Below, piece after piece: positions 1 through 20,547 of a DNA stretch of 64,000 bases (position 1 is the first letter of the stretch; each line of letters opens with the position of its first letter). The DNA lies in NCBI RefSeq assembly GCF_014270105.1, contig NZ_JACNMF010000003.1, positions 310,001 through 374,000 on the forward strand, given 5' to 3'. Made by a program: the position numbers and the translations under genes. This DNA comes from Hyunsoonleella aquatilis (GTDB taxonomy: Bacteria; Bacteroidota; Bacteroidia; Flavobacteriales; Flavobacteriaceae). The notes below the pieces were generated by a model that did not search any database, had not been told where the DNA came from, and worked only from the letters and a program-made list of their open reading frames with translations.

Positions 1-55
1 AATGTTAAAAAATCTATATCTAATACAGTTTTGATATCAATGGCGTCTCAAACGG

Positions 56-97
56 TACAGTACAGGATAGGAATGTTTGTCCCCTACAGTATTTTTG
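56..97 (+). promoter_or_regulatory. Rhamnose operon promoter with shared 15-bp operator
   Basis: The 15-mer TACAGTACAGGATAG lies at 56-70 and begins with the direct repeat TACAG-TACAG. After exactly 19 nt comes TATTTTTG at 90-97, a perfect match to the Bacteroidota -7 consensus TAnnTTTG. The identical 15-mer, with the same 19-nt spacing to a -7 box, precedes the permease gene at 12926, and a diverged copy precedes lutA. The element covers the place where a -33 box would sit, which fits an activator-dependent promoter; that is inference. The regulator is not in the window. Confidence 0.7.
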
Positions 98-123: not shown

Positions 124-2229
124 ATGAAAAACACTACAAAAACCTTCGAATATGTCGATTATTTATGGGATGAGGCAAAAGCGGCATCTTTGGGCGACAA
201 TCAAGTAGAATTATTTCTCTACCGCTCAAATATTTTGGGAGCCGATTTAAGAATAACAAATTATGGTGGCGGAAATACCAGTTGCAAGACAATTGAAACC
301 GATCCATTGACAAACGAAGAGGTTGAAGTAATGTGGGTAAAAGGTTCTGGTGGCGATATTGGGACTTTAACAAGATCCGGTATCGCTGGATTATATACCA
401 AAAGGCTGAGAGACCTTAAAAATGTGTATCAAGGTCTGCATGATGAAGACAGGATGGTGGGGCTTTTTAACCACTGTATATATGATTTGGACAGTAAAGC
501 GCCATCTATTGATACGCCTTTACATGGTTTATTGCCATTTGCACATATAGATCACTTACACCCGGATGCTTTAATTGCTGTAGCGGCCGCTAAGGATAGT
601 GAGAAAGTAACCAAAGAAATTTGGGGAGATACTATGGGATGGGTACCATGGCAAAAGCCAGGGTTCGATTTAGGTCTTCAGTTGGAAAAATGCCTGGCCG
701 ATAATCCTGGAATACGAGGTATCGTTTTAGGTAGCCATGGTCTATTCACTTGGGGAGACACGTCTTACGAATGTTATATGAACAGTTTAGAAGTTATTGA
801 AATGGCCTCTGACTATATTGCGAAGAAAATTGAATCCGGCGGGCCAGTTTTTGGTGGCGAAAAAGTATCAAGCCTTCCTAAAGATGAGCGCGTGGAAAAG
901 GCGGCGCAATTAATGCCATTGCTTAGAGGCTTGTGTTCTTCTGAAAATCGCATGATAGGACACTTCTCTGATTCTGATGTCGTAATGCAATATATCAATA
1001 GTCATGACCTGGAGCGATTGGCCCCAATGGGTACATCTTGCCCAGACCACTTCTTAAGAACAAAAATCCAACCTTTGGTATTGGATTTAGATAAAAATGA
1101 AGACCTGTCAGATACGGAAGCTGTTTTAAAGAAATTGGAACCTGCATTTGAGGCATACCGCCAGGAATATGTTGACTATTACAACACTTGTAAAGTAGAT
1201 AATAGTCCAGCAATTCGAGATGCAAATCCTGTAATCATTATTTATCCGGGGGTTGGTATGTTTAGTTTCGCTAAAAACAAACAAACAACACGTGTTGCTA
1301 GTGAGTTTTATATAAACGCCATAAACGTAATGCGCGGTGCGGAGGCTATTACATCTTACACGTCTTTGCCAAGGCAAGAAGCATTTAATATTGAGTATTG
1401 GTTATTGGAAGAGGCAAAGTTGCAGCGTATGCCCAAAGAGAAGCCACTATCGCGTAAAGTAGCATTGGTTACAGGTGCTGGTGGTGGTATTGGTAAAGCT
1501 ATTGCTGATAAATTGGCTGCGGAAGGTGCAAACGTTGTGCTGACCGATATCAATGAAGAAGCACTTATTGAGGCCAATGGCACTTATGCAAGGGATGTTT
1601 CCGCTTATGCCATTTGCGATGTAACCAATACCGAATCTATAGCAAGTGCCTACAAAAAGGCTGTTATGGAGTTTGGTGGTGTAGATATCGTAGTGCACAG
1701 CGCAGGTTTGGCAATTTCCAAACCATTAGAGGATACTACCGATAAGGATTGGAATATTTTACAAAATATTCTTGTTAAAGGTCAGTTTGATTTGGCCAAG
1801 CAATTTTCAGCTATTACGCGCAAGCAAGGTTTAGGTGGAGATTACATTGCTATAGCAAGTAAAAATGGATTAGTTGCGGGGCCAAACAATGTGGCTTACG
1901 GTACGGCAAAGGCAGCCCAACAGCACATGGTACGCCTGCTGGCGGCCGAATTGGCAAAAGATAAAGTTAGGGTTAATACCGTTAACCCTGATGGCGTAAT
2001 TGTTGGAAGCAAAATTTGGGAAGGCGCATGGGCCGAGGGTAGAGCAAAAGCCAACGGTATTACTGTAGAAGAGCTACCAGCATTTTATGCAAAGCGCAAT
2101 TTATTACATGAAATCATTACCCCAGATGATATTGCTAACGGTGTATTCTCGTTAGTAGGTATTTTGGATAAGTCCACCGGTAACATTATTAATGTAGATG
2201 GTGGTATGGCAAATGCCTTTGTAAGATAA
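124..2229 (+). CDS. rhaEW: Bifunctional L-rhamnulose-1-phosphate aldolase / short-chain dehydrogenase (L-lactaldehyde dehydrogenase)
   Basis: This 701-aa fusion has a class II aldolase part at about residues 10-400 and a short-chain dehydrogenase at about 440-701. The aldolase shows GGGNTS at 48-53, the metal-ligand stretch HIDHLHP around H144 and H146, and GSHG at H205. The dehydrogenase shows the Rossmann motif TGAGGGIG at 450-457 and the YxxxK pair Y592/K596. Families of this layout (RhaEW) cleave L-rhamnulose-1-P to DHAP and L-lactaldehyde and oxidise the aldehyde to L-lactate. I chose the ATG at 124: an in-frame TTG at 31 would place the operator and -7 box inside the gene, and the 31 extra residues have no family resemblance. 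It is the first gene of the rhamnose operon. Whether the SDR half oxidises or reduces lactaldehyde cannot be read from sequence. Confidence 0.9.
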   Translation: MKNTTKTFEYVDYLWDEAKAASLGDNQVELFLYRSNILGADLRITNYGGGNTSCKTIETDPLTNEEVEVMWVKGSGGDIGTLTRSGIAGLYTKRLRDLKNVYQGLHDEDRMVGLFNHCIYDLDSKAPSIDTPLHGLLPFAHIDHLHPDALIAVAAAKDSEKVTKEIWGDTMGWVPWQKPGFDLGLQLEKCLADNPGIRGIVLGSHGLFTWGDTSYECYMNSLEVIEMASDYIAKKIESGGPVFGGEKVSSLPKDERVEKAAQLMPLLRGLCSSENRMIGHFSDSDVVMQYINSHDLERLAPMGTSCPDHFLRTKIQPLVLDLDKNEDLSDTEAVLKKLEPAFEAYRQEYVDYYNTCKVDNSPAIRDANPVIIIYPGVGMFSFAKNKQTTRVASEFYINAINVMRGAEAITSYTSLPRQEAFNIEYWLLEEAKLQRMPKEKPLSRKVALVTGAGGGIGKAIADKLAAEGANVVLTDINEEALIEANGTYARDVSAYAICDVTNTESIASAYKKAVMEFGGVDIVVHSAGLAISKPLEDTTDKDWNILQNILVKGQFDLAKQFSAITRKQGLGGDYIAIASKNGLVAGPNNVAYGTAKAAQQHMVRLLAAELAKDKVRVNTVNPDGVIVGSKIWEGAWAEGRAKANGITVEELPAFYAKRNLLHEIITPDDIANGVFSLVGILDKSTGNIINVDGGMANAFVR

Positions 2230-2358: not shown

Positions 2359-3639
2359 ATGAAAATTAATAAAGAACAACTAGCAGAGTCGAATAAACCA
2401 GGTTTAGGTAATCACAATGAAAACTTCGATTTTTTATCAAACAAGTTAACAAAGCAGGGTCACGACGTAAATGCGATCGTGTCTAAATTAGGGGCTTTTC
2501 AGGTAGCAATACCAAGTTGGGCCTTAGGCGCAGGGGGAACACGTTTTGGGAGGTTCTCGTTTTATGGTGAGCCTTCAAGCTTAGAGCAAAAAATAGAAGA
2601 CATTGGAATAATTCATGGTCTTACACAAACAGCAGGAGCCGTTTCATTGCACATTCCGTGGGACATTCCGTCGGACTACAATGCCATAAAGGAAAAAGCA
2701 GATGCCCTGGATATTAAATTTGATGCCGTAAATTCCAATACGTTTCAAGATCAGGAAGATGCTTCGGAATCATATAAATATGGTTCTTTAAGCAATACAA
2801 GTAAAGCTGTAAGAGATCAGGCGATCCAACATAACTTGGATGTGATCAAAATAGGGGATAAATTAGGGTCCAAAGCATTAGCAGTTTGGTTGGCTGACGG
2901 TTCTTGTTTTCCGGGCCAAAATAATTTTCAAACCGCATTTCAAAATACGCAGGATAGCTTAGTAGAAATTTACAAAGGACTGCCCGATGATTGGAAAATG
3001 CTTGTAGAATATAAGCCTTATGAGCCTAATTTCTACAGTACGGTAATACAAGATTGGGGAGCATCATTGATGTTGGCTAATGGTTGCGGTGATAAGGCCT
3101 ATACACTTGTGGATTTAGGTCACCATTTACCCAATTCAAATATCGAACAGATAGTTTCTATACTTCAACTAAAGGGTAAATTGGGAGGTTTCCATTTTAA
3201 TGATAGTAAATATGGTGATGACGATCTGACGGTGGGAAGCATTAAGCCTTATGCTCTGTTCTTGATTTTTAATGAACTGGTATATGGTATGCAAAACAAT
3301 CCACAAAATCCAGATTTAGCTTGGATGATTGATGCAAGTCATAATGTAAAAGATCCTTTGGAGGATTTAATTCAATCACTTGAAGCAATTCAAGAGGCTT
3401 ATGCAAAAGCAATGTTAATTGACCAAAATGCTCTAAAAGCGGCGCAGATGGACAATGATGTAGTGAAGTGCCAAGAAATATTACAAGGAGCCTATAGAAC
3501 CGATGTTAGGCCATTGTTGGAAAAGGCAAGGTTGAACTCTGGAGGGGCTTTAAATCCAATACAATCCTATCGCTCCTTAGACGTTAGGGGAGGACTTATC
3601 AAAGAAAGAGGAAAGCACACTATTGCCACAGGTTTATAA
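2359..3639 (+). CDS. rhaI: L-rhamnose isomerase
   Basis: The 426-aa protein belongs to the RhaI type of xylose-isomerase-like TIM-barrel sugar isomerases and would interconvert L-rhamnose and L-rhamnulose in the cytosol. Recognisable stretches are WALGAGGTRFGRF near residue 55, VEYKPYEPNFYST near 215, LVDLGHHLP near 252 and FHFNDSKYGDDDL near 274, where acidic and histidine metal ligands of the family lie. Length is normal. It sits second in the operon after a hairpin, and the kinase gene starts 2 nt after its stop codon, so the two are probably translationally linked. Confidence 0.9.
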   Translation: MKINKEQLAESNKPGLGNHNENFDFLSNKLTKQGHDVNAIVSKLGAFQVAIPSWALGAGGTRFGRFSFYGEPSSLEQKIEDIGIIHGLTQTAGAVSLHIPWDIPSDYNAIKEKADALDIKFDAVNSNTFQDQEDASESYKYGSLSNTSKAVRDQAIQHNLDVIKIGDKLGSKALAVWLADGSCFPGQNNFQTAFQNTQDSLVEIYKGLPDDWKMLVEYKPYEPNFYSTVIQDWGASLMLANGCGDKAYTLVDLGHHLPNSNIEQIVSILQLKGKLGGFHFNDSKYGDDDLTVGSIKPYALFLIFNELVYGMQNNPQNPDLAWMIDASHNVKDPLEDLIQSLEAIQEAYAKAMLIDQNALKAAQMDNDVVKCQEILQGAYRTDVRPLLEKARLNSGGALNPIQSYRSLDVRGGLIKERGKHTIATGL

Positions 3640-3641
3640 GT

Positions 3642-5015
3642 ATGAAAAAAGTTACGGCAGTTTTTGATATAGGCAAGACTAATAAAAAGTTTTTCCTCTT
3701 TGATAAAAATTTCAATGAGGTCTATACAGAATACACTTCGTTTGAAGAAATAGAAGATGAGGATGGGCATCCAACTGAGAATCTTGGGGAACTACGGACG
3801 TGGGTAAAAGAAGTATTTGATAAGTTTCTGAAATCAGATACTTATGATGTAAAAGCCATCAACTTTTCTACGTATGGGGCAAGTTTTGTGCATATTGACG
3901 AACAGGGCAATCCTCTAACACCACTTTACAATTATACTAAGCCTTTAGACGGAAAAGTTGTTGATGCTTTTTTTGAAAAGTACGGACCCAGAGAAGAATT
4001 TTTGAAGAACACGGGGTGTACCGAGTTAAGTATGCTTAACTCTGGTCTCCAACTTTTTTGGTTAAAGTATGAAAAGCCAGAGGTGTTCAAAAAAATTAAA
4101 TACTCATTACACTTGCCGCAGTATTTGAGCTTTATGTTTACGGGTATTCCTGTTAGCGAATATACAAGTATTGGTTGCCATACCGCCCTCTGGGACTACT
4201 CAAAGAAGGACTACCATAGTTGGGTTTACAGTGAAGGAATAGATAAAATTCTGCCACCGATTGTGTCTACTGAAACTAGCATAAATATGAACTACGATGG
4301 GCATCGTGTAAAAGCTGGTGTAGGTATACACGATAGTTCTGCGGCGCTTTTACCTTATGTAAGGAGTATCAACAAAAAATTTGTATTGGTTTCAACAGGA
4401 ACGTGGAGTATTGTTTTCAATCCCTATTTTGAAACTCCAATTGAAGAGCAATCCTATGATAAAGATACCTTGAATTACATGCGTATCAATGGAAGACCAG
4501 TCCGTGCAACAAGGCTGTTTTTAGGTAACGAGTACAAAGTACAGGTCGCATATCTTACTAAACATTTTGGAGTAGACGATGACTATCATATGAAGGTGAA
4601 ATTTGATTATGACACCTATTATGAAATTGTAGAGGATTTTAAGAATTGCTTTAAATGGGAGAGTATAGAGGGCGAAAATATGCCAGAACAGACATACATG
4701 CCCTATACGGAGTTTGAACACGCCTACCATCAACTTATGGTTGAGCTGGTTTTAATCCAAATAAAGTGCATCAAGGATGCTTTGGGAGGAAACAATTTTG
4801 CAAGAATATATGTAGATGGCGGATTTAGTAACAACGACATCTATATTAAGTTGTTATGTCATTATTTCAGGGATAAAAAATTGAGCACAACCGATGCGTC
4901 TTTGGGATCAGCTTTGGGAGCCGCCATTTCAATTTCTGACAACAAACTAAATTCCAAATTCTTAAAGAAAAATTATGCGCTTAAAAAACATGTGCCATTT
5001 ATTGTAAATGCATAG
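3642..5015 (+). CDS. rhaB: FGGY-family carbohydrate kinase, probable rhamnulokinase
   Basis: This 457-aa kinase has the N-terminal FGGY phosphate loop VFDIGKTNKK at residues 7-16, a mid-protein GIHDSSAALLPY segment, the STGTWSIVF motif of the ATPase fold, and VDGGFSNN near residue 382. The FGGY family phosphorylates sugars with ATP; its position between rhaI and two aldolase genes makes L-rhamnulose the likely substrate. It starts 2 nt after rhaI. A 61-nt gap follows. Family membership is certain, while the exact sugar is inferred from the operon. Confidence 0.88.
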   Translation: MKKVTAVFDIGKTNKKFFLFDKNFNEVYTEYTSFEEIEDEDGHPTENLGELRTWVKEVFDKFLKSDTYDVKAINFSTYGASFVHIDEQGNPLTPLYNYTKPLDGKVVDAFFEKYGPREEFLKNTGCTELSMLNSGLQLFWLKYEKPEVFKKIKYSLHLPQYLSFMFTGIPVSEYTSIGCHTALWDYSKKDYHSWVYSEGIDKILPPIVSTETSINMNYDGHRVKAGVGIHDSSAALLPYVRSINKKFVLVSTGTWSIVFNPYFETPIEEQSYDKDTLNYMRINGRPVRATRLFLGNEYKVQVAYLTKHFGVDDDYHMKVKFDYDTYYEIVEDFKNCFKWESIEGENMPEQTYMPYTEFEHAYHQLMVELVLIQIKCIKDALGGNNFARIYVDGGFSNNDIYIKLLCHYFRDKKLSTTDASLGSALGAAISISDNKLNSKFLKKNYALKKHVPFIVNA

Positions 5016-5076
5016 TTGACAGCGTACATCGTTACGAGAAAAAAATTAATTAATAAACCAACAATATTGTATTGAA

Positions 5077-6366
5077 ATGTCAAAAAATATAAAATTAGTT
5101 CATCCAAGAGATCAAATTACCGAAATAATAGACCGAGTTTATAAACGGGGCATGACCACAACTTCTGGAGGTAATATCTCTATTATAGACGATGAAGGCG
5201 ATATCTGGGTAACACCTTCAGCCATTGATAAAGGATCCTTAAGAGCATCCGATATTATTTGTGTAAAAAAAGATGGTACCATTATAGGGAAGCACAAGCC
5301 TTCCTCTGAGTTCCCGTTCCATAAAGCTATTTATGAAGCTAGACCAGATATTAAATCTGTAATCCACGCGCATCCACCGGCATTGGTGTCGTTTAGTATT
5401 GTGCGTCAAATACCCAATACAAATATTATTTCTCAAGCAAAACATGTTTGTGGACCAATTGGATATGCAAAATATAGACTTCCTGGTAGTGAAGATTTAG
5501 GCGAAGTAATTGCAGATGAATTTAAAAAAGGTTATAAAGCTGTTATTATGGAAAATCACGGCACCGTTTTAGGAGGAAGTGATTTAACAGATGCCTATGA
5601 GCGTTTTGAAGCCTTAGAGTTTTGTGCAAATACCATTCTATATGGCTCTCAAATTGGAACCCCTAGATATTTGACTGATGACCAAATTGATGAATTTGAA
5701 TCACAGGCAACGGGAGTTCTCCCTGAAATGGAAAGCACTAGTTATACTTCGGATGAAGTAGAAAAGCGATTGGAAATATGCAAAATTGTCCAACGCTCTT
5801 GTGAACAAGGTTTAATGATAAGTTCTTATGGTACTGTGTCTATGCGTTGGAAAGAGAACGATTTTTTAATAACACCAACTGGAGCTAATAGATGGGATTT
5901 AGATTTAGACGATATCGTACAAATAAAGGGTGGTAAGCGAGAAGCTGGTAAAACACCTAGTAGGGCTACTTGGATTCATCAGGAAATTTATAATAAAAAC
6001 CCTGATGTGAATTCTATTATAATGACCCAATCCCCTTATTTGATGGCTTTTGGTGTAACAGGTACTCATTTGAATGTAAGAACCATTCCTGAGAGTTGGA
6101 TTTTCTTGCAGGATATAAACTTTTTAAAGTACGGTGATCATTTCAGAAAAAACAATAATTCAGAAATGGTTGAAGATTGTGCAACTGCATTAATAATAGA
6201 AAATGATTCGGTAATTGTTACTGGAGATAAATTGTTGCAAACATTTGATTATTTGGAAGTTGCGGAATTTAGTGCAAAATCTATTGTTTTAGGCCATTCC
6301 CTTGGAGAAATGGTGCCAATAAATGATGAACAGGTAGAAGATTTAAGAAAGAAATTTTTGACATAA
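5077..6366 (+). CDS. Tandem class II aldolase/adducin-family protein, second domain without metal ligands
   Basis: The 429-aa protein is two class II aldolase/adducin domains in a row, at about residues 10-205 and 228-425. The first keeps the fuculose-1-P-aldolase-type zinc set: E78 (SSEFPFH), H97 and H99 (IHAHPP) and H161 (MENHG). At the matching places the second domain has TPSRATW, MTQSP and IENDS, so glutamate and all three histidines are gone. It is probably a structural or regulatory domain. Substrate is unknown; an aldolase for rhamnulose-1-P is already encoded at 124-2229, so this one may act on a related deoxy-sugar phosphate such as fuculose-1-P or on a side product. The next gene begins 3 nt after its stop codon. 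Confidence 0.82.
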   Translation: MSKNIKLVHPRDQITEIIDRVYKRGMTTTSGGNISIIDDEGDIWVTPSAIDKGSLRASDIICVKKDGTIIGKHKPSSEFPFHKAIYEARPDIKSVIHAHPPALVSFSIVRQIPNTNIISQAKHVCGPIGYAKYRLPGSEDLGEVIADEFKKGYKAVIMENHGTVLGGSDLTDAYERFEALEFCANTILYGSQIGTPRYLTDDQIDEFESQATGVLPEMESTSYTSDEVEKRLEICKIVQRSCEQGLMISSYGTVSMRWKENDFLITPTGANRWDLDLDDIVQIKGGKREAGKTPSRATWIHQEIYNKNPDVNSIIMTQSPYLMAFGVTGTHLNVRTIPESWIFLQDINFLKYGDHFRKNNNSEMVEDCATALIIENDSVIVTGDKLLQTFDYLEVAEFSAKSIVLGHSLGEMVPINDEQVEDLRKKFLT

Positions 6367-6369
6367 AAT

Positions 6370-7518
6370 ATGGCAATAAGTTTTGACACACGTTATCCAT
6401 CTATCGATGACCTAAGAGCTAAAGCTCAAAAAAAGATTCCAAAATTTGCTTTTGAGTATCTTGATGGAGGGTGTAATGAAGATGTTAATTTAGTTCGTAA
6501 TACGGCAGAGCTACGAGAAGTTCAGCTTAAGCCAAACTACTTAAGAAAACACCATGGCTCATCGTTAAAGACTAAATTATTTGGAGTTGAATATGATGCG
6601 CCGTTTGGTATTGCACCGGTTGGACTTCAAGGTTTAATGTGGCCCAATTCGCCGGAAATATTGGCAAAGGCAGCGTTTGAGCATAATATTCCTTTTATTT
6701 TAAGCACGGTAACCACTACTAGTATAGAGCGAGCCAGTGAATTGACAGAAGGAAAAGCATGGTTTCAATTGTACCATCCGGCCGAGGATTCATTAAGGGA
6801 TGATATTATCAATAGGGCCGCCGTAGCGCATTGTCCTGTTCTAGTCATTCTGTGCGATGTCCCTACGTTTGGTTTTAGACCAAGAGATATAAGAAATGGA
6901 TTGGCTATGCCACCTAAAATGAATCTAGCAAATATTTTAGAAGGATTTACACACCCACACTGGAGTTTGCAAACTTTAAAACATGGTATCCCTAATTTTG
7001 CAACCCTGAAACCATATATGCCTAAAAATTTGGATTTAAAGCAATTAGGCAAGTTCATGGACCAAACCTTTAGTGGAAGGCTAAATGCTGAAAAAATAAA
7101 GCCTATCCGCGACATGTGGAAAGGTAAACTTGTTTTAAAAGGTGTAGCATCAGAGTATGATACCGAAGAGGCAATCCGATTAGGATTAGATGGTATTATT
7201 GTGTCCAATCATGGGGGGCGTCAATTAGATGCAGGTCAATCAACGGTTAAGCCATTATCAACTATTGCTGAAAAGTATGGAGATAAGATTGAGGTAATGA
7301 TGGATAGTGGTATTCGTTCGGGACCTGATGTAGCAAGAGCCATGGCAAGCGGTGCTAAATTTACATTTATGGGGCGCTCATTTATGTATGGCGTTTCTGC
7401 ATTAGGTAAAAAAGGAGGTAACCATACTATTTCTTTGCTGAAAACAGAACTGCAACAAGTGATGGATCAACTGTGTTGTGAGACCACTAGTGATTTCCCA
7501 AATCATTTAATAAAGTAG
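6370..7518 (+). CDS. lldD: FMN-dependent alpha-hydroxy acid dehydrogenase, probable L-lactate dehydrogenase
   Basis: The 382-aa enzyme is of the LldD/glycolate oxidase family, a TIM barrel carrying FMN that oxidises L-2-hydroxy acids. Visible hallmarks are FEYLDGG near residue 28, PVGLQGLMWP at 83-92, LKGVAS with K257 and the catalytic SNHGGRQLD with H281 and R284. In this operon L-lactate made from rhamnose-derived L-lactaldehyde is the natural substrate, with electrons passing to quinone. It starts 3 nt after the tandem aldolase. It is functionally redundant with lutABC on the opposite strand. Lactate preference over glycolate or mandelate is inferred from context. Confidence 0.87.
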   Translation: MAISFDTRYPSIDDLRAKAQKKIPKFAFEYLDGGCNEDVNLVRNTAELREVQLKPNYLRKHHGSSLKTKLFGVEYDAPFGIAPVGLQGLMWPNSPEILAKAAFEHNIPFILSTVTTTSIERASELTEGKAWFQLYHPAEDSLRDDIINRAAVAHCPVLVILCDVPTFGFRPRDIRNGLAMPPKMNLANILEGFTHPHWSLQTLKHGIPNFATLKPYMPKNLDLKQLGKFMDQTFSGRLNAEKIKPIRDMWKGKLVLKGVASEYDTEEAIRLGLDGIIVSNHGGRQLDAGQSTVKPLSTIAEKYGDKIEVMMDSGIRSGPDVARAMASGAKFTFMGRSFMYGVSALGKKGGNHTISLLKTELQQVMDQLCCETTSDFPNHLIK

Positions 7519-7568
7519 ATTTAAATCTTTTAGAGGTATAAGAATATTAACTAACTAAACAATATATT

Positions 7569-9008
7569 ATGAAACATTATAGGCAATTTATTAATGGTCA
7601 GTTTATAGATTCAAAGGCCACTTCGGTGATTGAGATACTAAACCCATGCACAGAAGAAGTCATTAGCACCATATCGACAGGAACGATAGAAGACGCCAAT
7701 AATGCCTTGGAAGCTGCACAGGCATCACAACCAGCTTGGGAAGCTTTGCCAGCAATACAGCGGGCTGCATTTTTGCACAAAATGGCTGATGTTATTAGAG
7801 AAAACAGAGTGTTTTTGGCTGAAACTCTGTCTAGAGAACAAGCTAAGGTTATTGGTTTAGCTCAAGTTGAAATAGACGTAACAGCTGATTATTTTGATTA
7901 TAACGCTGGTTGGGCAAGAAGAATTGAAGGTGAAATAATTCAAAGTGATAGAGAAAAAGAACATATCTATTTGCACAAAGTGCCAATCGGGGTAGCAGTA
8001 GGTATTTGCCCTTGGAACTTCCCATTTTTTGTGATGGCACGTAAAGTTGCGGCATCGTTAATCACGGGAAACACTTGTGTTATTAAACCAAGTTCTGAAG
8101 CGCCTAATACTATTATGGAGTTTGCAGACCTTATTCAAAAGATTAAGTTGCCTGCCGGTGTTTTAAATTTTGTTTGCGGCGCAGGTAGAACGGTTGGAAA
8201 TGCTTTGTGTGGAAGTCCCATTACAGGTATTATCAGTTTAACTGGTAGCGTGGGTGCAGGACAAAAAGTAATTAGTGCTGCTGCTGAAAATATCACAAAA
8301 GTTTCTTTGGAATTAGGAGGTAAGGCTCCTGCCATTGTTTGTGCAGATGCTAATATGGAGTTGGCTGTAAATTCCGTTGTATCTTCTAAGGTTATTTTTA
8401 GTGGACAGGTTTGTAACTGTGCAGAACGTGTATATGTAGAGGATAGCATTTACGATGAATTTGTAGATAAGCTCACTAAGAAAATGAGCGAGGTTAAAAT
8501 TGAAGAGGCCTTAACGGGAACTGATGCTGATATGAGTAGTCTGGTTTCTAAAGATCAATTGGATAAAATCACAGAAATGGTTGAGTTTGCCAAGAAAGAA
8601 GGAGCAGAGGTGCTTGTTGGTGGTGGACAACCAGATAAATTTGACAGAGGCTACTTTTACGAACCAACTTTAATTACGGGTTGTCGTCAGGATAGTCAAA
8701 TCATTCAAGAAGAAGTTTTTGGACCAGTATTGCCAGTAATGAAGTTTAATACTTTAGATGAAGCGATTGCAATGTCCAATGACTCGGAATTTGGTTTAAC
8801 ATCATCTATATTTTCTGAAAACTTCAATAACATCATGAAAGCTACAAATGGTCTTCATTTTGGTGAAACTTACGTTAACAGAGAGCATTTTGAAGCTATT
8901 CAAGGATTTCATGCCGGATGGAAAAAGTCTGGTATAGGCGGAGCTGATGGTAAATATGGTATGGAGGAATATTTACATACAAAAGTAGTTTACGCTAAAT
9001 ACTACTAG
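7569..9008 (+). CDS. aldA: Lactaldehyde dehydrogenase
   Basis: The 479-aa protein is an NAD-dependent aldehyde dehydrogenase that follows E. coli AldA along its whole length: GQF near residue 10, ADYFDYNAGWARRIEGEIIQ from about 106, PWNFPFF with N150, K173, E248 in LELGGK, and the nucleophile C282 in SGQVCNCAERVYV. The C-terminal FHAGWKKSGIGGADGK stretch is also AldA-like. It would oxidise L-lactaldehyde to L-lactate. It is the last gene of the rhamnose operon, 50 nt after lldD, and is followed by a strong terminator. The activity overlaps the SDR half of the first gene. Confidence 0.93.
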   Translation: MKHYRQFINGQFIDSKATSVIEILNPCTEEVISTISTGTIEDANNALEAAQASQPAWEALPAIQRAAFLHKMADVIRENRVFLAETLSREQAKVIGLAQVEIDVTADYFDYNAGWARRIEGEIIQSDREKEHIYLHKVPIGVAVGICPWNFPFFVMARKVAASLITGNTCVIKPSSEAPNTIMEFADLIQKIKLPAGVLNFVCGAGRTVGNALCGSPITGIISLTGSVGAGQKVISAAAENITKVSLELGGKAPAIVCADANMELAVNSVVSSKVIFSGQVCNCAERVYVEDSIYDEFVDKLTKKMSEVKIEEALTGTDADMSSLVSKDQLDKITEMVEFAKKEGAEVLVGGGQPDKFDRGYFYEPTLITGCRQDSQIIQEEVFGPVLPVMKFNTLDEAIAMSNDSEFGLTSSIFSENFNNIMKATNGLHFGETYVNREHFEAIQGFHAGWKKSGIGGADGKYGMEEYLHTKVVYAKYY

Positions 9009-9949: not shown

Positions 9950-10528
9950 TTAAACCAATAAAACCGTCAAACTCATAGCACCATGAGCACCGACTACCAG
10001 GCATTGCTCTATATCTGCCGTTTTTGAAGGCCCTGAGATAAACACGCCAAAATCCCTGTCTCTTTTGGCAATCTTGTCATAAGCTTCAAGCATGTGTAAA
10101 CAGATGCTGTCCTTTTTCAGAATAATGACCAGATCGTTTGTGATAAAGGGCAGTACGCGGACTATGCTATCTTTAGCAGAAACCCAAACCGCACCATTTT
10201 CTGCAACACCAAGTTCTGCTTCAATAATAGCCAGATCCACAGTTTCAAGATTATGCGGATCCATGTTTTTATCAACAGTGACGGTTCCTAAACTAGATTT
10301 ATCCGTTGTTGAAACAATTCGTGTTTTATCGGGGTAACTTTCCTTTATCGGTGAATCTATAGCCCCTTTATTTGCTTCAATAATATTTCCCCCTACGAGG
10401 GTAATATTGTTTTTAAACCGTTCAATTAAATTGATGTCTTCCTTAAAGGCAGATACATCAATTTCTGGAAGTGGAAGTACTTCTGGCCTGTTCGCTTTTA
10501 CAGATTTCAATATAGCTTCTCTACCCAT
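9950..10528 (-). CDS. lutC: Lactate utilization protein C (LUD domain)
   Basis: The 192-aa LUD-domain protein is the third subunit of the LutABC L-lactate oxidation complex. I place the start at the ATG at 10528 (MGREAILKSVKANRPE); that codon overlaps the lutB stop by 8 nt (AATGGGTAG), a usual coupling arrangement. A longer reading from 10606 would lie deep inside lutB and add 26 atypical residues. The GTVTVDKNMDPHN stretch and the conserved SKTADIEQ near the C-terminus are typical of LutC. Last of the lut genes; the hydrolase gene follows. Confidence 0.9.
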   Translation of the reverse strand: MGREAILKSVKANRPEVLPLPEIDVSAFKEDINLIERFKNNITLVGGNIIEANKGAIDSPIKESYPDKTRIVSTTDKSSLGTVTVDKNMDPHNLETVDLAIIEAELGVAENGAVWVSAKDSIVRVLPFITNDLVIILKKDSICLHMLEAYDKIAKRDRDFGVFISGPSKTADIEQCLVVGAHGAMSLTVLLV

Positions 10529-11888
10529 TTTTCTTTCTTTTTTTATACCAGTTATCAAAACTGTCGTTCTTAACTTTGGGAAGCTCTCGGGCTTTTCCCC
10601 AAGCATTCAACCTGTTGTAAATCATGAATCGCGGTGCATGTTTTAATGCAAAACGAGCGGAATTGCCTGCTATTTTATAAAGTTTAGGCTTAGATAGCAC
10701 TACACCTGCCGTTTTTAAGATAGATTTTTTAACAATAGGCTGTTGGGTCTCCTTTACAATAATTTGTCGCCATTTATAGAGCTGTTCATGAATGTCAATT
10801 TTTACAGGGCAAACATTGGAGCATGAACCGCAAAGTGTGGATGCAAAAGGTAATGAACTGTGTTTTTTCAAATCTTTTCCTGGTGAAAGAATAGAACCGA
10901 TTGGTCCAGGTATAGTATAATCATAACTATGCCCGCCACTTCTTCGATAAATAGGGCAGGTGTTCATACAAGCTCCGCAACGGATACAATGTAATGATGC
11001 TCTAAAATCCGGCCTACTTAATTGTTCCGTTCTACCATTGTCAACAATAACAATATGCATTTCCTTACCATCTTCTGGTTTGTTGAAATGCGAAGAGTAC
11101 GTTGTAATGGGTTGGCCTGTCGCACTTCTAGCGAGTAGCCTTAAAAAAACACCAAGATGCTTTTCCTTAGGGATAATTTTTTCAATACCCATACAGGCGA
11201 TATGTGCTTTTGCAAGATGAACGCCCATATCAGCATTGCCCTCGTTCGTACAAACTACTACGCCACCGGTATCTGCCACGGCAAAGTTTACGCCCGTAAT
11301 GGCCACATCGGCATTAAGGAATTTATCCCTTAAATGCTTTCTGGCTTCTCCAACCAAATAATCTGGATTTCCGCCACTAGGCTTTGTGTTTAAATGCTTC
11401 TGAAACAGTACATCAACATCCTCTTTGGTTTTATGTATAGCGGGTAACACGATATGGCTTGGTGGTTCTTCTGCTAATTGTACGATACGCTCGCCTAAAT
11501 CCGTATCGATTACTTCGATGCCCCTATCCTCCAAAAACGGATTCAAGTGGCATTCTTCGGTTAACATGGATTTACTTTTAACTACTTTTTTAGCATTATG
11601 TTTGCTCAATATATCATTAACAATGTTATTGTGTTCCTCAGCATTTGAGGCCCAGTGTACATGAATGCCCTTTTTTTGTGCGTTAGCTTCAAATTGGATT
11701 AGATATTCATCTAAATTTGACATGACGTGGGCTTTGATACCTGAGCCCAATTGCCTCAAATATTCCCATCCCTGAACGTTATGTGCTGATTTATCACGCT
11801 TTTCCCTAACAAACCAAAGGGCTTTATCATGCCAGTTTACTTTTGCTTCATCTTTATTGAACTCCGTAGCTTTTTGTGCGTGTCCCAT
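10521..11888 (-). CDS. lutB: Lactate utilization iron-sulfur protein B
   Basis: The 455-aa protein has an N-terminal LUD domain (about residues 60-290) followed by a ferredoxin-like part with two [4Fe-4S] cysteine sets: C301, C304, C307, C311 (CIRCGACMNTCP) and C353, C356, C360 (CGSCSNVCP). This is the LutB/YkgF layout. With LutA and LutC it oxidises L-lactate to pyruvate in the cytosol using Fe-S centres instead of flavin. It starts 3 nt after lutA and overlaps lutC, so the three genes form a tight operon. Confidence 0.95.
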   Translation of the reverse strand: MGHAQKATEFNKDEAKVNWHDKALWFVREKRDKSAHNVQGWEYLRQLGSGIKAHVMSNLDEYLIQFEANAQKKGIHVHWASNAEEHNNIVNDILSKHNAKKVVKSKSMLTEECHLNPFLEDRGIEVIDTDLGERIVQLAEEPPSHIVLPAIHKTKEDVDVLFQKHLNTKPSGGNPDYLVGEARKHLRDKFLNADVAITGVNFAVADTGGVVVCTNEGNADMGVHLAKAHIACMGIEKIIPKEKHLGVFLRLLARSATGQPITTYSSHFNKPEDGKEMHIVIVDNGRTEQLSRPDFRASLHCIRCGACMNTCPIYRRSGGHSYDYTIPGPIGSILSPGKDLKKHSSLPFASTLCGSCSNVCPVKIDIHEQLYKWRQIIVKETQQPIVKKSILKTAGVVLSKPKLYKIAGNSARFALKHAPRFMIYNRLNAWGKARELPKVKNDSFDNWYKKRKKNG

Positions 11889-11891
11889 AAC

Positions 11892-12644
11892 TTAAAAAGT
11901 GCTATTTAGAATTTCGGCAATGTGCATTACCTTCAACGGTTGTTTGTTTCTGTTTACAATACCTTCCATGTGCATCAAACAGGAATGGTCGGCGCCGGTG
12001 AGTACCTCCACATCACTGTCAAGATGGTCTTTAACCCGATCATTACCCATTTTAGCCGAAATGGCTTCTTCAAAAACGGCAAAAGTACCTCCAAAACCAC
12101 AACATTCGTCTTTGCGATTGAGGGCCATCAGCTCCAGCCCTTTTACTTTATTTAATAAATCTTCTTCTGTAGAATAATGTTCGCCTTGTACCTCAGAACA
12201 TTTGCCTAATTTAAGGCCTCTTAGTCCATGACAGCTTTTATGAAGTCCTACCTTGTGAGGAAAAGATGCACCCAAATCGGTTTTCCCAAGTATTTTTACA
12301 ATGAATTCACAAAGCTCGTAGGCATTGTTTCTTACCCTCTTTACGTCCTCCGTTTGTTCTAAAATATCGAAGTGATGCTTGATATGGTAAATGCAACTAC
12401 CAGATGGGCCTACAATAAAATCGTAGGCTTTAAAATTCTTGACGAAGTGGTCACAAATGCCTTTAGAATCTTCTTCGTATCCTGAATTCCCTAACGGCTG
12501 CCCGCAACAGGTTTGTCCTTCGGGATAATACACATCGACCCCTAGTTTTTCGAGTAGTTCCAAGGTTGCAATGCCGACTTGCGGATATAATTGATTGATA
12601 TAGCAGGGGATAAAAAGCCCTACTTTTATGGAGTTTGTATTCAT
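11892..12644 (-). CDS. lutA: Lactate utilization protein A (CCG-domain Fe-S protein)
   Basis: The 250-aa protein carries two cysteine-rich CCG domains: C14 with CCGQPLGNSGY at C46/C47, and a second pair at HKSCHGLRGL and ECCGFGGTF near residues 134 and 194. This is the LutA/GlpC-like Fe-S subunit of the LutABC complex. It is the first gene of the lut operon. Upstream on the same strand is a promoter with the operator also found before the rhamnose operon, which ties L-lactate oxidation to rhamnose use. Confidence 0.94.
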   Translation of the reverse strand: MNTNSIKVGLFIPCYINQLYPQVGIATLELLEKLGVDVYYPEGQTCCGQPLGNSGYEEDSKGICDHFVKNFKAYDFIVGPSGSCIYHIKHHFDILEQTEDVKRVRNNAYELCEFIVKILGKTDLGASFPHKVGLHKSCHGLRGLKLGKCSEVQGEHYSTEEDLLNKVKGLELMALNRKDECCGFGGTFAVFEEAISAKMGNDRVKDHLDSDVEVLTGADHSCLMHMEGIVNRNKQPLKVMHIAEILNSTF

Positions 12645-12669: not shown

Positions 12670-12711
12670 TAAAAATATCCTATATCTTGATGAAAACTGT
12701 CCTGTTCTGAC
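12670..12711 (-). promoter_or_regulatory. lutABC promoter with diverged copy of the shared operator
   Basis: On the minus strand, GTCAGAACAGGACAG (12711 to 12697) matches 11 of 15 positions of the element at 56-70. After exactly 19 nt follows TATTTTTA (12677 to 12670), one mismatch from TAnnTTTG. The spacing equals that at the rhamnose operon and at the permease gene, so the match is unlikely to be chance. Confidence 0.58.
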
Positions 12712-12821
12712 CTGATAAATTGCGTTTAAATTGTTGTTTTTGCTATTTTGCGCTATCGGAGTAGCAATAACTTTTCAACGAATGAATTGCTGATTATTCA
12801 GTTGGCAAATTTAGCATACCA

Positions 12822-12863
12822 TACAGTACAGGATAGAAAAATACAATGGTCATCCTATTTTCG
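12822..12863 (+). promoter_or_regulatory. Permease promoter with exact copy of the shared operator
   Basis: TACAGTACAGGATAG at 12822-12836 is identical to the element at 56-70. TATTTTCG at 12856-12863, one mismatch from TAnnTTTG, again lies 19 nt after it. The site points at the permease gene at 12926, giving a leader of about 55 nt. A second weaker -7-like box, TAATTTAG, lies at 12874-12881. Confidence 0.68.
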
Positions 12864-12925: not shown

Positions 12926-14320
12926 ATGGCAGAGCATCAAGTAAGTGACGCAGCAGTGGACGATGGAACGGGAGGAGAATTTGAAAGAACCCCTGTACCT
13001 GCGTCTAGACTGAAAAATTGGAAATCTTTTTTGGGGATGTATGCCGGTGAGCATGCTGCCGGTACTGAATTTATGATCGGCCCATTATTTTTAGCGGCAG
13101 GAGCCAGTTTAAAAGATTTAATACTGGGATTATTTATTGGTAACATTCTTGCGATACTTACCTGGAGATACATAGTAGCGCCAATAGCAGTATCAAGAAA
13201 ACTCACCTTATATTATCAATTGGAAAAAATAGCAGGAAAGCACCTTGTAAAGGTGTATAATGTGGTGAATGGGGTACTTTTTTGCTTTTTAGCAGGCGCC
13301 ATGATTACGGTTTCTGCTAGTGCTGTTGGGGTTCCGTTTGGCGTAAGTTTTTCTGTTCCTGAAAATATATTTGGATTGAGCAGTCCTGCTTTTTCTGGCA
13401 TAGTTATTATTGTTGGTATAGTGATGGCTATTGTAGCCGCGGCAGGCTATAATATGGTTTCTAAATTTGCCAACATTGCGGCGCCATGGATGATTATTGT
13501 TTTTGCAGCCTGCGGGATATCTGCATTGTCCCAAATGGAGGTTGATTCTTGGAAAAGTCTGCTAACGGAATGGGATCAAGGAATAAGTGTGGTACAGTCC
13601 ATAAATGGTAAGGTAGATTTTGGTTTTTGGAAAATTGTAATTTTCGCGTGGTTATGTAATGCCGCAATGCATTTTGGAATGTCTGACTTAAGTATTATGC
13701 GTTTTGCCAAAGATACCCGTGCAGGATGGGGACCTTCCATTGGGATGTTTTTAGGGCATTATATGGCATGGATTTGTGCCTCATTGATGCTAGCGGCCCA
13801 AATTAAACTAACAGGAGATATTTCCGCTAATCCAGGTGCTTTAGCATGGAGTGTAGTAGGTTGGACAGGTATTATCTGCGTGATTATTGCTGGTTGGACA
13901 ACGGCTAATCCTACCATATATAGAGCAGGCCTCGCTTTTCAAAGTTTGTTTTCTCCCAATGCAAAAGCCTATTCAGGCGTAATTTTGGCTGGAGTTGTGG
14001 CAACAGTTGCAGGTATTTTTCCAACACTATCCAGTAAATTGCTTGATTTTGTAGGTTTGTATGGCACCATCTTAGGGCCTATGGGTGGGGTGATATTTGT
14101 TAACCATTACCTATCAAAAAAAATGGGCTTTACTGCAGACTATGCGGATGAAAAGGGGTCTAGTTTTAATGTGGCCGTTTTATTAGCTTGGACCATTCCA
14201 GTAGCGTTAGGTTTATACTTTATATTTGCAAAAGGTGTGTTTCCCGCCTACGCCGTAATACCTTGTTGGATTGCTTCTAGTGTATTATATGTACTTATTA
14301 TGAAACTTCAAAAATCTTAA
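12926..14320 (+). CDS. NCS1-family (cytosine/purine permease-like) transporter
   Basis: The 464-aa integral membrane protein has about twelve hydrophobic segments and the NCS1 (purine-cytosine permease) pattern: a soluble N-terminus, the GMYAGEHAAGTEFMIGPL loop before helix 1, and ITVSASAVGVPFGVSF in helix 3. Known members carry nucleobases, allantoin, hydantoins or thiamine, driven by protons or sodium. Its promoter shares an exact operator with the rhamnose operon and it is divergent from lutABC, so lactate, rhamnose or a related acid or sugar is a possible cargo; this is inference and would be unusual for the family. Two tiny membrane ORFs follow. Confidence 0.85.
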   Translation: MAEHQVSDAAVDDGTGGEFERTPVPASRLKNWKSFLGMYAGEHAAGTEFMIGPLFLAAGASLKDLILGLFIGNILAILTWRYIVAPIAVSRKLTLYYQLEKIAGKHLVKVYNVVNGVLFCFLAGAMITVSASAVGVPFGVSFSVPENIFGLSSPAFSGIVIIVGIVMAIVAAAGYNMVSKFANIAAPWMIIVFAACGISALSQMEVDSWKSLLTEWDQGISVVQSINGKVDFGFWKIVIFAWLCNAAMHFGMSDLSIMRFAKDTRAGWGPSIGMFLGHYMAWICASLMLAAQIKLTGDISANPGALAWSVVGWTGIICVIIAGWTTANPTIYRAGLAFQSLFSPNAKAYSGVILAGVVATVAGIFPTLSSKLLDFVGLYGTILGPMGGVIFVNHYLSKKMGFTADYADEKGSSFNVAVLLAWTIPVALGLYFIFAKGVFPAYAVIPCWIASSVLYVLIMKLQKS

Positions 14321-18347: not shown

Positions 18348-19261
18348 GGGAAGGCCGGTGTTACAGTCCTTTCATTATTCAGGGAGAAACCGCTTCTGCC
18401 ACTAAAAAATCCAAAATCCAAGGAGTCTTGCAATAGAATACTCAAGCTAATTTCCGTTACAGTCATTCGCAAAGTGTAGGTTTGTTTGATAGTGTGTTCT
18501 CGATACGCTGTAGCGTCTACTTTTGTAGACAAAGACGGGTTTAAATAATCTGGCCCCACATCAGGAAAAGTAACATCATCCGCCGGTTCTTGGTTTTGGG
18601 AGTCATTTTCTTCGTCCCGTGTTAAAGTGCCGTCGCCATCATCGTCGTCGTCTAAGTAATCTGGGAGGGGGATAGTTTCTTTGTCGGAATCCGTATTTTG
18701 AGCATCGGCAGGGTCGCCGTCACCATTCGGGTCCGGGTTTTCGTTTTTGGTAAATACATTGTCGCCGTCGTCATCCTCGTCCAAGTAATTGGGTATACCA
18801 TCGCCATCAGTATCGTCATCTTCCAAATTGCCATTGCCGTTAAGGTCTTCAAATTCTGGGTCAATCCCATCATCATCATCTTCAACTAAAGTCCGGATAA
18901 GGGTTACGCCACACGAACTAGTTTCATTAGTAGCTATATTTAGATTTGCAGGAGGGATGTTGGTGCAGAATAAATCCGAAGGCAGATCGGGCCTGCCATA
19001 GGTCCTGTAAAAAAATGTCCCTGTTTTTTCGATGGTGTCATTCGCATCTTCATCAAAAGCATCTGCAATGGTGTAATTAGTGATTAATACTGACAACGTT
19101 TCCGTTGGGTCTTCTTTCGTCTTGTATAGCACCAAATCCGATTCGCCACAGGCATCATATTCATTTTCAAAATCCAATTCAACTTCAAAAACATCTCCGT
19201 CATCACAGGACATGGGAAGTAGCAAGCTAAGTATCGAAAAAACAACAACTAATTTTCGCAT
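18344..19261 (-). CDS. Lipoprotein with thrombospondin type 3-like calcium repeats
   Basis: The 305-aa protein begins MRKLVVVFSILSLLLPMSC, a lipoprotein signal; the cysteine is followed by DDGD, an acidic start like surface-export signals of Bacteroidota lipoproteins. From about residue 140 to 230 it has repeated Asp/Asn-rich units (DGDGIPNYLDEDDDGD, NGNGNLEDDD, PNGDGDPAD, DDDDDGDG) of the thrombospondin type 3 kind, which bind calcium. Probably a cell-surface protein. An in-frame start 20 codons upstream was rejected because it would bury the signal sequence. Confidence 0.78.
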   Translation of the reverse strand: MRKLVVVFSILSLLLPMSCDDGDVFEVELDFENEYDACGESDLVLYKTKEDPTETLSVLITNYTIADAFDEDANDTIEKTGTFFYRTYGRPDLPSDLFCTNIPPANLNIATNETSSCGVTLIRTLVEDDDDGIDPEFEDLNGNGNLEDDDTDGDGIPNYLDEDDDGDNVFTKNENPDPNGDGDPADAQNTDSDKETIPLPDYLDDDDDGDGTLTRDEENDSQNQEPADDVTFPDVGPDYLNPSLSTKVDATAYREHTIKQTYTLRMTVTEISLSILLQDSLDFGFFSGRSGFSLNNERTVTPAFP

Positions 19262-19398
19262 CGGGGTTTTTATTTTAAGCAAAAATAATGGAATTGTATT
19301 TATAACGTAAGGTATTGCCAATAATTTTATTTCAAGTATTTTTGGACTTTAAAATGGTATTTATTTGACCGAAAGCTGTTTTGCTGAGATAATTTTTT

Positions 19399-20547
19399 AT
19401 GGAAATGAAATCCGTTTATTTTGATAACGCCGCTACTACCGCTATGAGGGATGAAGTCATTGAGGTGATGTCCTATGTTATGAAAAATAATTATGGAAAT
19501 GCTTCATCTTCATATAGTTTAGGCAGGTTGTCTAAATCTATAATTGAGACTTCAAGAAAGACGATTGCCAAGGTTCTGAATGCTTCTCCTGGTGAAATTA
19601 TCTTTACCTCCAGTGGTACGGAAGCTGATAATCTAGTATTAAGAAGTGCAGTTCGGGATTTGGGTGTAAAGCATATCATCACTTCAAAAATTGAGCACCA
19701 CGCCGTGCTACATACTGTTAATGAACTAGAAAGGGAATATGGTGTTAAAATAAGTTATCTGGACTTGGATGAATATGGGGTGATTGATTTTGACCAACTC
19801 GAATCGCTTTTAAAGAAACATAAAAATGTTTTGGTAAGCTTAATGCACGTTAATAATGAAATTGGCAATATTTTAGATATAAAGCGGGTTGGCGATTTGT
19901 GCAAGGCCAATAGGGCGTTGTTCCATTCCGATGCGGTGCAATCTATCGGGCATTATCGTTTGGATGTTCAAGAATCACAAGTGGACTTTTTGGCGGCCAG
20001 TGCGCATAAGTTTCATGGTCCAAAGGGGGTAGGCTTCGCGTTTATTAGAAAGAATTCAGGGCTAAAACCTTTAATTTTTGGTGGGGAGCAGGAGCGTGGC
20101 CTCAGGGCCGGTACCGAAAGTGTTCATAATATTGCGGGCCTTGAAAAGGCAATGAGTATGTCATATGACAATCTAGAATCCGAAGTGGAATATGTTCAAA
20201 ACTTAAAGTCCTATTTTGTCTCAAAATTAAAGAAGGCTATTCCAGATATAGAATTTAATGGCCTTTCAGAAGACTTGGAAAAGAGTACTTATACGCTTCT
20301 CAATTTAAGATTGCCAATTGACCCGAATAAATCGGCTATGTTTTTATTTCAATTGGATTTAAAAGGTATCGCTTGTTCCAAAGGAAGCGCCTGCCAGAGT
20401 GGGAGTAATCAAAAATCCCATGTGCTTAAAGAAATTCTTAATGCTGATGAGCTCGAGAAACCTTCTATAAGATTTTCGTTGAGCGTATTCAACACAAAAC
20501 AAGAAATTGACTATGTGGTGGGGGTATTAAAAAGTTTAACTTCGTAA
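19399..20547 (+). CDS. Cysteine desulfurase (NifS/IscS-like)
   Basis: The 382-aa PLP enzyme of the class V aminotransferase fold takes sulfur from cysteine. It shows YFDNAATT at 7-14, the PLP-lysine motif SAHKFHGPKG with K204, H101, and the active-site loop KGSACQSG with C332, the IscS-type position. It stands alone, without iscU or hesB nearby, so it may serve tRNA thiolation or a general sulfur supply; Bacteroidota usually make Fe-S clusters with the Suf system. M3 is an equally possible start. Confidence 0.9.
   Translation: MEMKSVYFDNAATTAMRDEVIEVMSYVMKNNYGNASSSYSLGRLSKSIIETSRKTIAKVLNASPGEIIFTSSGTEADNLVLRSAVRDLGVKHIITSKIEHHAVLHTVNELEREYGVKISYLDLDEYGVIDFDQLESLLKKHKNVLVSLMHVNNEIGNILDIKRVGDLCKANRALFHSDAVQSIGHYRLDVQESQVDFLAASAHKFHGPKGVGFAFIRKNSGLKPLIFGGEQERGLRAGTESVHNIAGLEKAMSMSYDNLESEVEYVQNLKSYFVSKLKKAIPDIEFNGLSEDLEKSTYTLLNLRLPIDPNKSAMFLFQLDLKGIACSKGSACQSGSNQKSHVLKEILNADELEKPSIRFSLSVFNTKQEIDYVVGVLKSLTS

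Follow-up and report, generated by a model that had tools for sequence, protein, structure and literature searches.

A direct-repeat operator at fixed promoter spacing and a candidate GntR/LacI-type activator of rhamnose and ulvan genes in Hyunsoonleella aquatilis

A stretch of 64,000 nucleotides from the flavobacterium Hyunsoonleella aquatilis (C15:310001-374000 of a 3.93-Mb genome; the whole of this stretch is called the window) contains a short element repeated in front of the rhamnose operon beginning with rhaEW, the lactate oxidation genes lutABC and an NCS1-like permease gene, and raises the question of which protein reads the element and in which manner. A first-pass annotation had proposed a rhamnose-lactate-permease regulon under an activator, possibly of the AraC type, encoded outside the window. 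The explanation that best fits the data presented here, and that we consider probable as a whole, is a class II-type activator of another kind, the GntR/LacI chimera GntR1, acting at this operator.

The 15-mer TACAGTACAGGATAG was present in exact copies at 56-70 (+) and 12822-12836 (+), and a minus-strand copy, TCAGAACAGGACAG, at 12711-12697 was identical to it at 11 of 15 positions (counted by eye; beyond the 3-mismatch limit of the search). All three copies were where the first-pass annotation had placed them, and each was followed by a -7 box starting 19 nt past the end of the element. The operators, extended as explained below, and their boxes are as follows (matrix scores refer to the scan described further on).

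53-70, plus strand: operator CGGTACAGTACAGGATAG of the rhaEW operon, consisting of the 15-mer at 56-70 plus 3 bases 5'; matrix score 42.4, the top of 31 hits in 254 kb
90-97, plus strand: -7 box TATTTTTG of rhaEW, 19 nt 3' of the operator; predicted transcription start at about 102
12697-12714, minus strand: operator variant CAGGTCAGAACAGGACAG of lutABC; matrix score 25.6
12670-12677, minus strand: -7 box TATTTTTA of lutABC, 19 nt 3' of the operator
12819-12836, plus strand: operator CCATACAGTACAGGATAG of the permease gene; matrix score 31.4
12856-12863, plus strand: -7 box TATTTTCG of the permease gene, 19 nt 3' of the operator

The complete element comprised 18 bp, CRGTACAGTACAGGAYAG, as the conserved stretch began 3 bp 5' of positions 56-70. 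In an alignment of 37 promoters (30 from relatives' loci and 7 from the source genome, found with the spacing imposed, so that spacing was tested separately), position 1 was C in 34/37 and position 3 was G in 30/37, both being bases absent from the search pattern; little conservation was found further upstream or in the 19-nt spacer. Direct identity among 25 own-genome sites (25 of the 26 that scored above control in the matrix scan, C15:210066 being omitted) reached 0.69 at period 10 and 0.50 at period 5, vs. 0.26 in shuffled sequences for both, and was 0.17 at periods 9 or 11. In our reading, the operator consists of two 8-bp half-sites in direct repeat, CAGNAYAG and CAGGAYAG, lying 10 bp apart. 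The direct repeat TACAG-TACAG pointed out earlier does exist, but it is only part of this structure, whose strongest repeat has a 10-bp period. An inverted-repeat operator was rejected, the symmetry of the same 25 sites being 0.51 as compared to 0.50 after shuffling. Given that the -7 box of flavobacteria covers -12 to -5, as described in PMC9723704, the operator falls at about -49 to -32, with its centre at -40.5. The data supported a genuine regulatory site in the -33 place whose geometry does not vary and which the rhamnose operon, the permease gene and lutABC have in common.

No third copy of the exact 15-mer occurred in the 3.93-Mb genome. Three more matches appeared at 2 mismatches: C15:167140 was a site with a box at 19 nt, and C15:230657 and C15:574829 lay within open reading frames and had no box at this distance; the abundance of box-less copies that would have troubled the first-pass annotation was therefore not encountered. 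A pattern of 14-mer, N19 and -7 box matched the genome at seven places with up to 3 mismatches, all of them in C15:134-323 kb, whereas the reversed pattern gave none, which excluded chance.

The distribution of the element over the source genome was analyzed with a matrix built from 102 relatives' sites, none of them from this genome, which included the box at 19 nt. Ten stretches over C15:120001-310000 plus the window (254 kb) gave 31 hits at a score of at least 8, in comparison with 2 in reversed sequences (best 12.8); 26 hits, 3 of them inside the window, scored over the best control hit. When the 18-mer was scored alone, without the box, 22 hits reached 14 (1 in the reversed control), and 17 of these 22 had a box matching at least 5/6 positions at 19 nt, any other offset from 10 to 30 giving at most 4. 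The genes behind above-control sites included those for a PL28 ulvan lyase, for one more protein carrying the ulvan-lyase beta-trefoil domain, for alpha-rhamnosidase-family proteins (GH78 and GH106) and a GH2-family protein, for sulfatases and a SusC-like receptor, and for RhaT, an SDR-UxuA-KduI-like run and a MocA-type oxidoreductase; a GH3 gene (12.7) and another beta-trefoil protein (12.5) had sites slightly under the best control score. Run over the whole genome, a looser pattern matched 25 places with 0-2 mismatches, and C15:133-323 kb accounted for 19 of these; it supports clustering only, as its control was high (107 reversed vs. 151 matches at up to 3 mismatches). These sites left of the window indicated that the three window promoters are the right-hand end of an ulvan and rhamnose region. 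The regulon initially proposed is real insofar as the three promoters share the site, but it is far wider than them and spans the ~190-kb ulvan-degradation region.

A candidate regulator was found just left of the window, in agreement with the earlier statement that the window itself does not contain it.

C15:308593-309633, minus strand: GntR1, GntR winged helix plus LacI-type sensor; start codon 368 bp left of the first base of the window, divergent from rhaEW
C15:307398-308447: second GntR1 copy, a GntR-domain gene beside GntR1

The N-terminus of GntR1 is a GntR-type winged helix (PF00392, E 6.4e-11, over the cut-off), with sequence matches in PDB to YvoA and to the AraR DNA-binding domain, and its C-terminus matched Peripla_BP_3 and LacI structures. 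The best NCBIfam match was PdxR, over the DNA-binding domain (2.6e-13, far below the cut-off). HTH_18 was not found in GntR1 at E 1e-5. The two copies, in tandem at C15:307398-309633 (L021:17398-18447 and 18593-19633), are 66% alike, and tandem pairs were also seen in relatives L060, L061, L062, L067, and L074. The gene is present as well in Nonlabens ulvanivorans, a flavobacterium that uses ulvan.

Occurrence of the site followed that of GntR1 across the family. A search for the 14-mer with box at up to 2 mismatches gave sites in 65 of 299 family genomes (~150 hits vs. 8 in the control, summed from the table). GntR1 matched 128/299 genomes at E 1e-30, and 60 genomes were considered to have close orthologs (best hit of at least 366 bits, the next genome having 260). 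Sites were present in 56/60 genomes with close GntR1 vs. 9/239 others, that is, 56 genomes had both, 9 the site alone, 4 GntR1 alone, and 230 neither. Among the 9 site-only genomes, G019 and G246 had a GntR4-type gene (a paralog treated below) beside the site and G222 a GntR homologue beside rhaEW. RhaEW was found in 70/299 genomes, 59 of them with close GntR1. We then considered 89 partly overlapping loci, one each from 56 of the 59 other genomes with GntR1 (G224, G271, and G297 omitted) together with 33 named ones. RhaEW lay within 73 of the 89, corresponding to 68 distinct promoters; in 67/68 the nearest GntR1 was opposite in orientation to rhaEW, and in 66/68 the 18-mer was present at up to 3 mismatches, as compared to 0/1360 shuffles. 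All 66 operator-bearing promoters had the TAnnTTTG -7 box of the flavobacterial sigma-A promoter at 19 nt (at least 5 of its 6 positions matching); at any other offset between 10 and 30, a box of this quality occurred in at most 10. With respect to the 16 GntR1 loci without RhaEW, 14 contained at least one site scoring at least 18.

The first-pass observation had started from just two exact 15-mers, which by themselves might have been a chance or mobile repeat and not an operator; with 0/1360 shuffles against 66/68 promoters, 26 sites over the best control and ~150 hits vs. 8, this possibility has already been refuted by the controls and is practically negligible.

Operators were also retained away from the regulator gene. 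The seven rhaEW promoters fetched without an adjoining GntR gene (G061, G071, G115, G134, G152, G159, and G164; the ~1.5 kb 5' of rhaEW contained no GntR match, and the same was true of ~19 kb 3' in the six for which this stretch was fetched) all kept the operator, which argues for action in trans. They belonged to a set of ten rhaEW promoters whose best GntR1 lies elsewhere in the genome, all ten having the operator (0-3 mismatches) with a box at 19 nt; of the other three, G011 and G227 have a second GntR homologue beside rhaEW, and G110 a 111-residue piece of one. This GntR1-like stretch (L184:453-785, 59%) lies just 5' of rhaEW, with a full-length copy ~11 kb off, and is perhaps a remnant. 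Eleven RhaEW genomes had no close GntR1, and in the 10 considered (G298 was unfetched) 6 lacked an operator before rhaEW and 4 had a degenerate operator at 19 nt, these 4 having a GntR homologue (39-45%) beside rhaEW.

The suggestion of an AraC-type regulator was not supported. Proteins of this type usually use direct repeats, and the region contains both an AraC gene (C15:195960-196835) and a hybrid two-component gene (C15:274758-278804); moreover, 12 of the 15 genomes out of 299 with a match to that AraC gene have sites. However, 53 of the 65 site-bearing genomes have no match to it, and AraC as main regulator was rejected on this spread. In Bacteroides, AraC and hybrid two-component motifs are described with a period near 21 bp, not 10 (PMC3870299, PMC3878776); no direct repeat of ~21-bp period, of the Bacteroides RhaR type, was found here, the period being 10 and strong conservation reaching no further than 4 bp 5' of the 14-mer used for the search. 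Binding of the element by an AraC-type or hybrid two-component regulator is considered very improbable. The AraC-type gene (L017:15960-16835) is close to the PL28 ulvan lyase gene, and 12/15 matching genomes, the source included, have it at a minimum of 66% identity; its product is possibly an ulvan-specific second regulator.

Several results weigh against GntR1. Its tracking with the site holds for the close group only, and the AraC gene, too, co-occurs with sites (12/15 genomes, p 1e-6). Two GntR1 loci without RhaEW, L090 and L094, have no site scoring at least 13. The site was missing from 2/68 rhaEW promoters, namely L136 and L081, where RhaT lies between and a poor-box site precedes RhaT. 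Two of the 6 genomes above that lack an operator before rhaEW, G037 and G247, nevertheless encode a 39% GntR homologue at a distance of ~3.5 kb from this gene. The consensus used for the 66/68 count was learned partly from the same genomes, which moreover share ancestry, so that 66/66 does not represent 66 independent events, though the spacer is little conserved. Taking both sides into account, GntR1, rather than an AraC protein, is very probably the regulator of the element, as judged from domain content and co-occurrence.

As to the mechanism, the sugar-responsive GntR1 would recognise the element as its operator, its two GntR domains binding head-to-tail on the 8-bp half-sites, at about -49 to -32, in the place of a -33 element. 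It would then act in the manner of a class II activator, bringing sigma-A RNA polymerase to the -7 box that begins 19 nt past the operator, and the periplasmic-binding-type sensor may be triggered by rhamnose or a rhamnose product. The operator is predicted to couple rhamnose catabolism, lactate oxidation and transport to the large ulvan-degradation region. That the distance stays the same in front of rhaEW across many genomes, and at most sites of the source genome, speaks for contact with RNA polymerase, i.e., for activation, which had also been the earlier proposal and which we regard as quite probable.

The overlap of the operator with -33, by itself, would equally suit a repressor. The same regulator at the same operator could thus cover the -33 region and block RNA polymerase until rhamnose frees it, and there are precedents: AraR, which shares the two-domain build of GntR1 and in this counts against activation, is named arabinose metabolism transcriptional repressor in PDB, and a GntR family repressor of alginate catabolism in Zobellia is known from its title in reference lists. 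Blocking, however, needs no exact spacing, yet the box was at 19 nt in every operator-bearing rhaEW promoter and in most of the own-genome 18-mer hits, and the -33 place is filled by operator bases; these are arguments rather than proof, and they make repression unlikely. A further point that does not favour activation is that no -33 signal was present in 108 other TAnnTTTG candidates either (TTG in 10/108 vs. 1/52), which renders its absence uninformative.

GntR1 is not the only protein of its kind in the region.

C15:133612-134613: GntR4; a site 5' of its own gene at C15:133510 (L014), 19 nt before box TTATTTTG, and a second site at C15:134664 before SDR-UxuA genes

The site at C15:133510, operator-like and just 5' of the GntR4 gene, suggests autoregulation. 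In 5/7 close GntR4 orthologs the second site reads CAGGAYRGAGCAGGACRG, directly behind GntR4 and before SDR-UxuA genes where these are in view. Distant GntR4-like homologs (50-56%) were represented by 13 loci (L156-L168), 20 of the 38 listed relatives' places having been fetched; two of these, L163 and L164, had a site (score at least 13) immediately 5' of the GntR4-like gene itself, and sites at other genes were present in L160 and L168. A further GntR1 homologue (C1:616089-617117, 60% identity) is encoded apart from the rhamnose genes, and C1:613809 gave a weak site-like match.

Operator forms with differing half-sites were observed (CAGTACAG vs. CAGGACAG), and we infer that related GntR/LacI proteins share an operator grammar, which the paralogs would probably read in slightly altered form. 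Several of them might even share operators, the ulvan sites being mainly under GntR4, the second GntR1 copy or C15:273505-274545 and not under GntR1, an arrangement compatible with GntR1 acting at rhaEW. The distal half CAGGAYA in 9/23 own-genome sites outside the window and the CAGGAYRGAGCAGGACRG form behind GntR4 point in this direction, but the half-site differences are small and 14/23 sites lack this distal half; we regard such sharing as a serious possibility, if one that we lean against. A scan of the phylum at 3 mismatches matched 46/395 genomes with 11 control hits, many matches being probably due to chance, and was used only to conclude that sites are not strictly confined to the family. 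Two genomes of other families in the same class, G305 and G468, each contained three sites, exemplified by the types CAGGACACTACAGGATAG or CAGGACAGTACAGGATAG, whose box was near 19 nt, which suggests that the system reaches beyond the family. In its broadest form, the proposal is that one subfamily of GntR/LacI chimeras of marine Bacteroidota activates in the class II manner from a direct repeat of one helical turn, which replaces the -33 element at a fixed 19 nt, that the half-sites recognised by its paralogs (GntR1, GntR4, and others) differ slightly within a shared code, and that a ~190-kb ulvan, rhamnose, uronate and lactate programme would be switched by intracellular sugars instead of the usual hybrid two-component systems; we put this forward tentatively, with belief and doubt nearly in balance.

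The genes served by the three window promoters are the following.

124-2229, plus strand: rhaEW, bifunctional rhamnulose-1-phosphate aldolase/dehydrogenase, first gene of the rhamnose operon (NF006191, 1330.6 bits, over cut-off; TIGR02632, over cut-off)
2359-9008, plus strand: remainder of the rhamnose operon, five genes
2359-3639, plus strand: L-rhamnose isomerase-like (family match under cut-off)
3642-5015, plus strand: FGGY kinase-like (family match under cut-off)
5077-6366, plus strand: class II aldolase-like (family match under cut-off)
6370-7518, plus strand: L-lactate dehydrogenase (LldD)-like (family match under cut-off)
7569-9008, plus strand: aldehyde dehydrogenase (NF007497, passing the curated cut-off)
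9950-12644, minus strand: lutC-lutB-lutA-like L-lactate oxidation genes (TIGR00273, LutB/LldF, 438.6 bits, just below the cut-off of 444.8; LutA-like matches weaker; LutC from position alone)
12926-14320, plus strand: NCS1-like permease, probable L-rhamnose transporter (weak NCS1/cytosine permease matches below cut-off)

LldD and LutABC oxidise lactate, and together with the activities of RhaEW this makes metabolic sense of the grouping of rhamnose and lactate genes. RhaEW is described in PMC3870299 as a rhamnulose-phosphate aldolase fused to lactaldehyde dehydrogenase. The lut and permease genes were compared in 20 relatives' loci 3' of rhaEW (reversed control, 0 sites in 377 kb). In the four loci where lutA was found, it always had a CAGGTCAG-type site 5' of it. 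An NCS1-like permease was near the rha genes in 17/20 loci, with its own site in three (L190, L193, and L197) and mostly close behind the rha genes in the remaining ones; in a same-genus genome (L189) RhaT replaces it behind the same operator. This proximity and the replacement by RhaT suggest that the permease is a probable L-rhamnose transporter.

For a large group of bacteria that degrade seaweed, these results would name the regulator and the operator behind rhamnose and ulvan use, a predicted sugar-sensing protein switching on both kinds of digestion together in marine flavobacteria. The 18-mer, the 19 nt and the -7 box provide a search tool for ulvan and rhamnose regulons and for missing transporters, and the system lends itself to testing clearly if activation from a direct repeat is possible for a GntR/LacI chimera. 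In openly licensed literature, RegPrecise lying outside the search, we found neither this operator/regulator pair nor a GntR-type rhamnose regulator in Flavobacteriaceae, and the string 'flavobacter' does not occur in the main text of PMC3870299; such absence is weak evidence of novelty. The rhamnose regulators found in the literature belonged to other families only and, within Bacteroidota, came from Bacteroidales only.

By domain build GntR1 is a member of the AraR subfamily, having both the N-terminal GntR winged helix and the C-terminal GalR/LacI-homologous domain, but by operator it is not AraR. In Firmicutes, AraR governs genes for arabinose and related sugars; it is a repressor in Bacillus subtilis and has a palindromic operator, whereas the element described here, with the direct identity and the lack of inverted symmetry given above, is a 10-bp direct repeat at one fixed promoter position and serves rhamnose and ulvan genes of Bacteroidota.

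The MocR regulators (GabR, PdxR, TauR) resemble GntR1 in their GntR DNA-binding domain, often use direct repeats, include several activators and have genes often divergent from their targets, according to PMC5320631. Their sensor is aminotransferase-like, whereas that of GntR1 is LacI-type, which places GntR1 outside MocR, and the direct repeats published for them are spaced by two or three helical turns in contrast to one turn here. The RhaR types listed in PMC3870299 are AraC, DeoR, and LacI, and GntR1, with its GntR domain, has none of these DNA-binding domains. RhaR of Bacteroides thetaiotaomicron (PMC3870299; BT3768 in PMC3878776) is a positive regulator of the rhamnose operon in the same phylum, but it is an AraC family protein with a 21-bp-period motif. 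FucR (BT1272) and ManR (BT2103), listed in PMC3878776, are GntR-family sugar regulators of Bacteroides, also of the same phylum, which respond to fucose and mannose and are likened to GntR1 by family alone. Finally, in Escherichia coli XylR and marine XylRA, as described in PMC12125979, a LacI-type sensor is joined to an activator that binds direct repeats, as is proposed for GntR1; the DNA-binding domain of these proteins is of AraC type and C-terminal, whereas in GntR1 it is of GntR type and N-terminal.
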